From Mesorhizobium tianshanense (GTDB lineage Bacteria > Pseudomonadota > Alphaproteobacteria > Rhizobiales > Rhizobiaceae), in NCBI RefSeq assembly GCF_007830515.1, contig NZ_VLKT01000040.1, positions 1 through 64,000 of the forward strand: a DNA stretch of 64,000 nt, read 5' to 3'. Each line of letters opens with the position of its first letter. Position 1 is the first letter of the stretch. Position numbers and translations under genes: made by a program. Under the pieces are notes generated by a model. It was not told where the DNA came from, ran no database searches, and saw only the letters and a program-made list of their open reading frames with translations. This document shows positions 51,550 through 53,896 of this stretch, in pieces.

Positions 51550-51919
51550 GGTAACTGGAGCCAACCCCTCCAGTCGGTTTAGCGGCCAACCGCCAGACCG
51601 AGGACACCTTGAAGCAACGACGGTGCGGGCCTTTCTGGTGTTCTGCCGGTCGTCCAAAGACCGGGGTTACTGAAGAGGCACACCTTCATTGCCGGCAGTG
51701 CGGACGGGTTTCCCATCCAAGCCAAGGCAGACAAAGCGAACCGAGGCCGGGCAAGGCCAAGGTTCACCGCCGCGAGACGGCGCTTCATGGTTCCGGGGTC
51801 TCCACCGGCTGGTTCCATGGATTTGACGTCCCGCCTTTGTCCACCGCGTGTTCGCGAGGCCGACAGCCCGCGTCCCGCAGCCTTTGTGCGCGCCGAACGG
51901 CGCTGATGGAGAGACCCCG
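51550..51919 (+). ncRNA. Structured leader RNA of ornithine/lysine decarboxylase (speF-motif-like)
   Basis: The gap before the decarboxylase contains many exact hairpins: ACTGGAG/CTCCAGT (51554-51560 with 51568-51574), GCGG/CCGC inside CGGT/ACCG (51575-51600), CCGGTC/GACCGG (51646-51651 with 51659-51664) and TGAAG/CTTCA (51671-51675 with 51684-51688). CTGCCGG (51643-51649) can instead pair with CCGGCAG (51692-51698), which excludes the CCGGTC hairpin. GGGGTCTC (51796-51803) can pair with GAGACCCC (51911-51918), covering the end of the ribosome site. A conserved leader called the speF motif is known before ornithine decarboxylase genes in Rhizobiales; I assign this one by position and size, not by alignment. 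Confidence 0.6.
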
Positions 51920-53053
51920 ATGGCTACCCAGCGCATCCTTGACTTCCTCGCCACCCGACGTCCGAACGGCCCTTGCCTCGTCGTCGACCTCGATGTCGTG
52001 CGCGACAATTTCCGTGCCTTCGAGAAGGCGCTTCCCGATTCGAAGATCTACTATGCGGTGAAGGCAAACCCGGCGCCGGAAATCCTGCGCCTCCTTGCTG
52101 CGATGGGCTCGTCCTTCGACACCGCTTCCGTTGCCGAAGTCGAGATGGCGATGGACGCCGGTGCGCCGGCGGACCGCATCTCCTTCGGCAACACCATCAA
52201 GAAGGAGCGCGACATCCAGCGCGCCTATCAGCTCGGCATCCGGCTGTTTGCGGTGGACTGCGTCGAGGAGGTCGAGAAGATCGCCCGCGCAGCACCCGGC
52301 GCCCGTGTGTTCTGCCGCGTGCTGACCGACGGCGAAGGCGCCGAGTGGCCGCTGTCGCGCAAGTTCGGCTGCGTGCCGGCGATGGCGGTCGACGTGCTGC
52401 GCCACGCCAGGACGCTCGGCCTCGACGCGCATGGCGTGTCGTTCCATGTCGGCTCGCAGCAGACCGACCTCGCCGCCTGGGACCGTGCGCTCGGCGATGC
52501 CAAAAAGGTGTTTTCGACGCTCGCCGAAGAAGGCATCGTCCTGAAGATGGTCAATATGGGCGGCGGCTTCCCGACCCGTTACCTCAAGGATGTGCCGGTG
52601 GCGCAGGCCTATGGCCAGGCGATCTTCACGGCGCTGCGCAAGCATTTCGGCAATGCCATCCCGGAAACCATCATCGAGCCGGGCCGCGGCATGGTCGGCA
52701 ATGCCGGCGTCATCAAGTCGGAAGTCGTGCTGATCTCGAAGAAGGCCGACAACGACAATGTGCGTTGGGTGTTCCTCGACATCGGCAAGTTCGGCGGTCT
52801 CGCCGAGACGATGGACGAGGCGATCCGCTACCCGCTCGTGACCGCGCATGACGGCACCGAGACCGCGCCTTGCGTGCTCGCCGGCCCGACCTGCGATTCG
52901 GCCGACGTGATGTACGAGAAGACGCCGTATCCGCTGCCCTTGTCGCTGACCATCGGCGACGAGGTGCTGATCGAGGGCACCGGCGCCTACACGACGACCT
53001 ACGCCTCGGTTGCCTTCAACGGCTTCGAGCCTCTCCGATCCTACGTGATCTGA
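51920..53053 (+). CDS. Ornithine/lysine decarboxylase, alanine-racemase fold
   Basis: The 377-residue PLP enzyme has a group IV decarboxylase (fold III) structure and makes putrescine from ornithine or cadaverine from lysine. The PLP lysine is K48 in YYAVKANPAP. Further motifs are SVAEVEMAMDAG, FHVGSQQ, NMGGGFPTRY, the phosphate-binding EPGRGMVGNAG, and the active-site cysteine in GPTCDSADVM. ATG 51920 lies 8 bases after GGAG; the longer frame from 51848 runs through the structured leader and is rejected. Product putrescine would feed homospermidine synthase (27340). A long structured leader suggests RNA-level control. Confidence 0.92.
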   Translation: MATQRILDFLATRRPNGPCLVVDLDVVRDNFRAFEKALPDSKIYYAVKANPAPEILRLLAAMGSSFDTASVAEVEMAMDAGAPADRISFGNTIKKERDIQRAYQLGIRLFAVDCVEEVEKIARAAPGARVFCRVLTDGEGAEWPLSRKFGCVPAMAVDVLRHARTLGLDAHGVSFHVGSQQTDLAAWDRALGDAKKVFSTLAEEGIVLKMVNMGGGFPTRYLKDVPVAQAYGQAIFTALRKHFGNAIPETIIEPGRGMVGNAGVIKSEVVLISKKADNDNVRWVFLDIGKFGGLAETMDEAIRYPLVTAHDGTETAPCVLAGPTCDSADVMYEKTPYPLPLSLTIGDEVLIEGTGAYTTTYASVAFNGFEPLRSYVI

Positions 53054-53105: not shown

Positions 53106-53152
53106 TCCGGCTCGCCTGTGGAACAGATCTCCGCTCGCCAGGGATTACGGAA

Positions 53153-53896
53153 ATGGAAATTGCAGATTTCATTGTTGAAGGCGCTGCGCAGCGCGATTGG
53201 CCGATCTCCCCCCTTGAGGGGGAGATGGCCGGCAGGCCAGAGGGGGTCAGTTCGGCTGGCTCGACCTTTCTTGGTCTGTATGGGGCCGGCGCTTCATGCG
53301 CGGCGACCCCCTCTGTCGCCTTCGGCGACATCTCCCCCTCAAGGGGGGAGATTGCCGGCGCTTTCATCATCGTCGCCGAAACCGCTGCCGACGTTCCGGC
53401 GCGCGAAGCTTTGCTCGACCGTGCGATGGGCTTGAGCCGCCGGAAAAAATCATCGGAAAAGCTGCGGCGCGGCCGCCGGCCTTCGGAAGGCCTGGCCTTT
53501 GTCGCACGCGATGCATCGGGCACTGTTACAGGCACCGTGCGGCTGTGGGATGTCGTGCTGGGCGAGGGCGGTCGGGCAGCCCTTCTGCTTGGCCCGCTCG
53601 CCGTCGACCCCACAATCAAGAATGCCGGCATCGGCTCGGCGCTGATGCGCCATGCGGTCACTGAAGCCGCGCGTCTCGGCCACGCCGCGATCCTGCTCGT
53701 CGGCGACGCCCCTTACTATGGGCGTTTCGGGTTCTCGGCCGCCAAGACCGGCGCCCTCTCCATGCCGGGGCCCTATGAGCGGCACCGCCTGCTGGCGCTG
53801 GAACTGGTGGACGGCGCGCTGAGCGGCGCCCAGGGTACGCTGAAGGCCGCGGGGCGCAAGCAGAAGGCGCCGGTGGCTCTGACTTTCGCCGCTTGA
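53153..53896 (+). CDS. GNAT family N-acetyltransferase with in-frame palindromic element
   Basis: The 247-residue product is a YhbS-like acetyltransferase from about residue 70 onward (IIVAETAADVPAREALLDRAMG). The acetyl-CoA site is LLLGPLAVDPTIKNAGIGSALM, followed by GHAAILLVGDAPYYGRFGFSA. Residues 18-67 come from a 149-bp palindromic element that keeps the frame open and yields ISPLEGEMAGRPEG and FGDISPSRGEI. The first 17 residues (MEIADFIVEGAAQ and on) may be the original start of the gene. No conserved residue of the fold is disrupted, so the enzyme may still work with an inserted segment. Alternatively translation begins downstream and the element is leader only. Confidence 0.8.
   Translation: MEIADFIVEGAAQRDWPISPLEGEMAGRPEGVSSAGSTFLGLYGAGASCAATPSVAFGDISPSRGEIAGAFIIVAETAADVPAREALLDRAMGLSRRKKSSEKLRRGRRPSEGLAFVARDASGTVTGTVRLWDVVLGEGGRAALLLGPLAVDPTIKNAGIGSALMRHAVTEAARLGHAAILLVGDAPYYGRFGFSAAKTGALSMPGPYERHRLLALELVDGALSGAQGTLKAAGRKQKAPVALTFAA
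53204..53352. repeat. 149-bp palindromic element with exact 23-bp terminal inverted repeats
   Basis: The ends 53204-53226 and 53330-53352 are exact reverse complements over 23 bp; each is itself nearly palindromic (ATCTCCCCCC-TTG-AGGGGGAGAT). Inside, AGAGGGGGTC (53239-53248) matches GACCCCCTCT (53305-53314). Two mini-hairpins, GGCC-GGCA-GGCC (53227-53238) and GTCGCC-TTC-GGCGAC (53315-53329), sit next to the ends. No transposase is encoded. It resembles small non-autonomous palindromic elements of Rhizobiales and lies inside the GNAT reading frame. Confidence 0.92.

Follow-up and report, generated by a model that had tools for sequence, protein, structure and literature searches.

A non-autonomous palindromic repeat of Mesorhizobium has very probably entered a gene for a YhbS-like GNAT acetyltransferase, in the part that codes for the N-terminal tail, where it appears to give rise to about 50 disordered residues; its translation is inferred. 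The gene lies in the window, the whole stretch of 64,000 nucleotides of Mesorhizobium tianshanense DNA that was analysed. Orthologues with and without the repeat share one upstream start codon, and further copies of the same family lie in frame in two other conserved proteins, the β subunit of glycyl-tRNA synthetase (GlyS) and UvrD.

The palindromic element and the frame that crosses it

The features of the region, all on the forward strand, are as follows.

51848-53053, + strand: upstream neighbour, a gene for a PLP-dependent decarboxylase of the ornithine/lysine/DAP type (Pfam PF02784, PF00278)
53140-53144, + strand: Shine-Dalgarno-like AGGGA 5' of the start codon (sequence)
53153-53896, + strand: GNAT acetyltransferase ORF with the element, 247 aa, ATG start (ORF listing and Pfam)
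53153-53203, + strand: N-terminal tail ahead of the element, residues 1-17, similar across element-bearing alleles
53204-53352, + strand: palindromic element, 149 bp, residues 18-67 (sequence, inverted repeats, fold)
53204-53227, + strand: left terminal inverted repeat, 24 nt, near-palindromic in itself (inverted-repeat comparison)
53204-53233, + strand: left copy of a 30-nt direct repeat (partner at 53330-53359, spacing 126 nt, that is, 42 codons)
53225-53227, + strand: in-frame ATG within the element (codon 25), preceded by GAGGGGGAG; could serve as an alternative start (sequence)
53329-53352, + strand: right terminal inverted repeat, 24 nt (inverted-repeat comparison)
53330-53359, + strand: right copy of the 30-nt direct repeat, 80% identical to the left copy
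53366-53893, + strand: GNAT catalytic domain region, from residue 72 (Pfam, AlphaFold model, fold match to 4rs2 YhbS)

The terminal arms (53204-53227 and 53329-53352) are 100% complementary over 24 nt. The 149-bp length and the exact inversion given in the earlier note are thus confirmed, and only its arm length of 23 bp needs correction, by one base. Because each terminus is nearly a palindrome in its own right, the two ends double as direct repeats 126 nt apart. With up to three mismatches allowed, the terminus motif occurs nowhere in the whole window but at these two ends (0 of 100 shuffles), and the element stretch folds at -111 kcal/mol, compared with -69.3 (sd 4.6) in 200 shuffles (z -9.1). 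The element fits the description of repeats like the Rickettsia palindromic elements (RPE), namely palindromes with inverted termini of 100-150 bp, as well as that of MITEs, which have terminal inverted repeats. An Rfam identity was rejected: none of the 10 matches obtained at a permissive threshold reached the gathering score, and microRNA models headed the list, as long hairpins are expected to match them.

The reading frame had been predicted to run without a stop through the element and into a GNAT domain. The ORF at 53153-53896 is indeed present, and its product exceeds the Pfam cut-off for both Acetyltransf_7 (residues 114-195) and Acetyltransf_1 (108-194), with Acetyltransf_9 (80-196) scoring slightly under its own. 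The best solved relative, both by sequence and by fold, is YhbS (4rs2), and the assignment to the YhbS-like GNAT acetyltransferases is met on profile and on fold. In the AlphaFold model, residues 1-68 have pLDDT values below 50 and are disordered, the GNAT fold begins at about residue 70, and the prediction is confident over about residues 70-234, except 98-108. The segment derived from the element is therefore one that is predicted to be disordered. Judging from the model, the insert precedes the first strand of the fold, where extra chain should do little harm.

Element-free, filled and remnant alleles of the GNAT gene

A genus search recovered a strong GNAT orthologue in 138 of 146 genomes. 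Orthologous loci were taken from 139 genomes (the window aside, 137 of the 138 strong ones, and also G019 and G024, where the match is partial), and 140 loci, the window included, were classed by tail length and sequence patterns; six of the 146 genomes were left out. The relatives carry Mesorhizobium names, and a few of the 80 named loci belong to Aminobacter, Oryzicola and other Hyphomicrobiales. Matches over residues 1-239, full element included, were obtained for M. temperatum and M. mediterraneum. The classes comprise 56 empty alleles with a short tail, 36 with a full element, one with half an element (G135), 15 remnants, 31 with an S tail and one truncated copy (G080). A comparison with related strains had been proposed as a way to find the empty site, and the 56 element-free loci supply it. 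Their tails are exactly 17 residues long in 49 of 56 cases; one allele classed as empty, that of G154, has a tail of 24 residues and is perhaps a degraded remnant. The tail ahead of the GNAT core is 74 codons long in the window gene versus 17 in most empty orthologues, so 57 codons have been added in the former.

Empty, filled and single-terminus remnant alleles have a common leader and a common upstream ATG, and the frame of this ATG is kept in 36 of the 37 alleles that bear an element (36 full and one half). An in-frame stop lies no more than five codons 5' of it in 92 of 138 genomes, and an SD-like trimer is present within 15 nt upstream in all 138 orthologues, by a permissive test without a control. 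According to the earlier note, orthologues starting downstream of 53352 would have reduced the element to leader DNA; this is not what is found, as element-free orthologues use the same upstream ATG. When filled and empty GNAT and glyS alleles were inspected by eye, no convincing target-site duplication could be discerned.

Copies in other genes and fate of the inserts

In the window genome (G000; 7.86 Mb, 159 contigs), at least 111 element matches were obtained (best 40 of 99 candidates scored), which were merged by hand into 40 places. Five of these lie in frame in genes recognisable by Pfam: the GNAT gene, glyS, and the genes for UvrD, hydantoinase A (HyuA) and XdhC. The positions of the last four, in residues of each product, are given below.

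450-500 of the glyS ORF: element; PF02092 spans 45-716
367-415 of UvrD: element, between PF00580 and PF13361
241-258 of hydantoinase A: element piece, between domains
77-94 of XdhC: element piece, between domains

The search for further intragenic copies suggested by the earlier note was thus rewarded by members of the same family in frame in GlyS and UvrD, and, together with GNAT, these are the conserved proteins in which an in-frame element is matched by empty orthologues. The insert maps before residue 384 of 7yse in GlyS, and between residues 237 and 242 of 3lfu in UvrD. An AlphaFold model of GlyS with its inserts was discarded (mean pLDDT 35.8).

For the glycyl-tRNA synthetase β subunit, the element-bearing query has an unbroken match without stops in 38 of 146 genomes. 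At the element site, 41 loci were read (the best 30 of the 38 filled matches and 11 others that were chosen), of which 30 are filled, five empty and three reduced to a single terminus, and three hold a different insert of 21 codons (L313-L315, in G120, G087 and G092). The empty alleles read ELAPIVGADPALARRAAV, except that one has T in place of P and S in place of R, and another TN in place of AD. Further copies occupy a second glyS site, between DLIDAV and DDLLQIVR, in several species. A third variable place, after LVENxxRL, contains unrelated stretches of very different lengths, and the length of the β subunit ranges from 768 to 935 residues in 29 element-bearing species (L003 of the window genome and L249-L276). 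In the uvrD sample of 39 loci (the best 30 matches and nine chosen), 38 were resolved: both termini are present in frame in 20, a remnant in three and other stretches in 14, and one is empty, with 11 codons between the motifs. Six of the 14 other stretches (L300-L302, L305-L307) resemble another repeat, SPLEGEV...PLKGEG (SPLEGEVPAKRAEGV..PLKGEG).

Matches to HyuA were found in 32 of 37 genomes, eight of them end to end, and matches to XdhC in 24 of 37, 12 of them nearly end to end. The inserts of HyuA (L438-L442) and XdhC (L450-L459) share only the left end with the window element and then differ (SPLEGEM..TPPGGFAATLPSRGR); thus, they represent a related repeat at best. Stops were seen in insert-bearing relatives of XdhC (G021 and G012) and UvrD (G018), and may reflect broken genes or assembly errors. 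In UvrB of the window genome an element piece lies 3' of the last domain and is ambiguous, and in an HpcH/HpaI aldolase of G011 the element lies ahead of the domain. ORFs spanning an element and having any Pfam family numbered 4/10, 0/10, 5/10, 1/10 and 2/10 in five batches. The TPM, SLT_2, two BPD transport, TonB plug and HTH proteins were not counted, because their element is confined to the part ahead of the domain, possibly even 5' of the start codon.

The element is dispersed in many copies, most of them outside recognised genes, though their intergenic placing rests only on missing Pfam hits. In G011, at least 91 matches were obtained (best 40 of 242 candidates scored), and the spacing of the termini is divisible by three in 22 of the 30 best-scoring copies. 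When the three known gene copies are removed, it is a multiple of three in 19 of 27, and all 19 are open on at least one strand (binomial P 9e-5). These copies were picked by their likeness to an in-gene copy, and some perhaps lie in unrecognised genes, so the bias is suggestive only. In G000, where 11 of the 40 places had no measurable pair of termini, spacing modulo 3 is split 7/6/13 among 26 non-gene copies, and 19 of the 26 are out of frame between the termini. A shorter subfamily, with termini spaced 88-90 nt apart, accounts for 19 of the 26 non-gene copies in this genome. Members of this subfamily with a spacing of 89 nt, frame-incompatible between the termini, were noted at L018, L023, L030, L231-L233, L237-L239, L242, L243 and L246.

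Some inserts also appear to have been turned around within their genes. In nine of ten comparisons each, the GNAT inserts of G016 and G103 resemble related inserts more closely when these are reverse-complemented (0.86-0.96) than on the same strand (0.75-0.84); in the tenth, with G017, apparently only the loop of G017 is turned. Both inverted inserts stay in frame. The best outside match of the G016 insert is the antisense of the GNAT insert of its sister G020 (93%), followed by another scored G016 copy at 85% (best 40 of 229 candidates scored). This points to inversion in place, which is how the G016 insert appears, from these comparisons, to have been turned. The turned form is also present at glyS in G027. 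As the 126 nt between the terminal direct repeats equal 42 codons, a deletion between them would leave an in-frame remnant, and remnants consistent with such a deletion were found at 15 GNAT and three glyS loci.

The S tails derive from a different repeat. Pieces of the G115 tail recur elsewhere in G109, G153 and G000, though G115 itself yielded only its own copy. At the second glyS site of the window genome lies a clear palindrome, in frame there too, with which the S tail aligns at 73-76% over a stretch of about 130 bp (12 rows viewed). The frame used is open in 31 of 31 S tails; the other two forward frames are open in one and none. Two repeat families occupy the same two genes, GNAT and glyS, in frame, in different species. 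The second repeat may resemble RIME. In 11 of the 31 S-class GNAT loci (e.g., L170:818-1060, - strand), the tail is 54-57 nt longer than the commonest form.

On a tree of 139 tips built from the GNAT core and upstream DNA, the distribution of alleles with the element or a remnant requires at least 18 changes at GNAT and at least 25 at glyS. A single insertion event at either gene is accordingly not demonstrated. Either recurrent gain and loss or the passing of N-terminal haplotypes from species to species would account for such changes; the consistent tail sequences of full (F) and empty (E) alleles favour exchange at GNAT, an inference from sequence. The earlier note's reading, a mobile repeat that adds a protein segment, is largely upheld by the empty alleles, the shared ATG, the frame kept in 36 of 37 alleles and the GlyS and UvrD copies; what it still lacks is a target duplication or a single insertion event. 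A wider generalisation can be offered only tentatively, as somewhat less probable than its opposite: that the repeats are coding-compatible cassettes, with lengths that remain divisible by three and in many cases no stop on either strand, which repeatedly enter, invert in and collapse out of core (GlyS β, UvrD) and accessory proteins, inversion swapping peptides of 40-50 residues with the protein unbroken.

Inferred translation of the insert and comparison with known systems

The frame was examined in 33 full GNAT inserts, that is, the 36 without G099, which is off the frame of the upstream ATG, and without the two inverted ones. The frame used is open in all 33; of the two remaining forward frames, one is open in 13 inserts and the other in a single insert. 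The inserts have eight different lengths between 195 and 225 nt, every one a multiple of three. Among 582 substitutions counted by parsimony, a number somewhat inflated by differences in loop orientation, about 11 stops would be expected without constraint and none was seen (P about 2e-5). In three hand-picked clades (11, 8 and 8 genomes), dN/dS of the tail plus insert is 0.49, 0.49 and 0.47, versus 0.14, 0.14 and 0.18 for the core; pooled over the 27 genomes, the values are 0.54 and 0.19. The dN/dS of 19 G011 copies outside known genes, all open and in frame, is 0.88, a value inflated by those among them that have the other orientation. A Fisher test pooling orthologous alleles was set aside, the alleles being related. 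These findings make it most likely that repetitive DNA is read as part of working proteins in Mesorhizobium, with translation inferred in the absence of expression, protein or ribosome data.

The pS of the insert is lower than that of the core in clades A and B, and slightly so in C; thus, conservation of the DNA itself or conversion between copies is at work as well, and the dN/dS argument is weakened. Low synonymous divergence, together with the very stable fold, is what would be seen if the hairpin (-111 kcal/mol) just 3' of the start codon were kept for the control of translation or mRNA decay and its reading were incidental. Such an RNA-level role is unlikely: one hairpin is not what is preserved by frame retention, by single-terminus remnants or by a tail derived from another repeat elsewhere, and the glyS and UvrD copies sit in mid-gene.

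It is rather less probable that translation begins at the in-element ATG (53225), the first 24 codons being leader and the later part of the element protein. Of the 36 element alleles whose upstream ATG is still in frame, 33 have an in-frame ATG of this kind as well; in the window gene it follows GAGGGGGAG. In G099 (L149), the left terminus is frameshifted and the GNAT frame is still open from the in-element ATG, so the protein can start only there or later; an internal start is therefore possible in full alleles. However, the upstream ATG is the one used by empty alleles, all 15 remnants keep it in frame, 14 of them without an ATG inside the remnant (several have GTG), and the first 17 codons retain frame and sequence type. 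Even an internal start would leave the remainder of the element translated.

The frameshifted insert of G099 and the truncated copy of G080 could hint at a dying ORF in which the insertion is open by chance, but core dN/dS of 0.14-0.19 in element-bearing species and a strong orthologue kept in 138 of 146 genomes make such decay very improbable. Least tenable of all is a protein beginning 3' of the element: start-like codons lie past the right terminus and before LLDRAM in 27 of 36 element alleles, as ATG in four (G011, G164, G117 and G019) but mostly as TTG in the first GNAT helix, which is also where the sole such codon of the window gene is found (TTG, helix residues 78-92) and where a start would cut the first strand, and empty orthologues begin at the upstream ATG.

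Under the preferred reading, that of a translated insert, a short palindromic repeat would enter the N-terminal tail of the GNAT gene and be read through as a disordered stretch of about 50 residues. It would owe its survival to a length divisible by three, a stop-free register and a site at which the fold tolerates extra chain. The insert is inferred, from sequence alone, to be neutral or nearly so for the enzyme. Remnants would have arisen by deletion between the terminal repeats, and mobility is inferred to depend on an enzyme encoded elsewhere and acting in trans.

Bacterial MITEs fused in frame, such as the 107-bp Correia/NEMIS element and ERIC, are likewise short non-autonomous repeats with open frames in genes, as far as the accessible part of the source goes (PMC2229807); other MITE fusions are also described in the portions available (PMC2229807, PMC10969869). 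The Mesorhizobium element differs in that no target-site duplication can be assigned. Multi-copy repeats of the Rhizobiales offer a second parallel: in the available parts of the respective papers, the Bru-RS palindromes of Brucella are marked intergenic (PMC2267715) and RIMEs are called intergenic (PMC2573895), whereas the Mesorhizobium copies are intragenic and in frame. The available text on Bradyrhizobium repeats (PMC5082802) makes no mention of in-frame insertion. Among the literature matches listed (titles and abstract openings, with most subscription journals outside the scope), no title concerned protein-coding palindromes in Mesorhizobium.

A further likeness is to the RPE, described in the accessible portions of three sources as in-frame insertions in Rickettsia protein genes (PMC2229807, PMC10969869, PMC3733652). 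To judge from those portions, both are palindromes of about 100-150 bp with inverted termini, dispersed, in frame in conserved proteins and tolerated. The comparison with Rickettsia drawn in advance is apt for this way of working, sequence homology aside. The differences are that the present host is a GC-rich, multi-megabase rhizobial genus and that its sites are empty, filled, remnant, inverted or occupied by another repeat across many species. Mesorhizobium is free-living. Protein-coding palindromes have reportedly been found in Wolbachia as well. These earlier hosts, Rickettsia and Wolbachia, are obligate intracellular, and drift could explain tolerance there. Here the repeats reside in core genes of a large-genome genus, and empty, filled, remnant and inverted alleles at one site in more than 100 species constitute a natural experiment that bears on how small repeats create protein segments and on whether selection keeps such segments or merely tolerates them.
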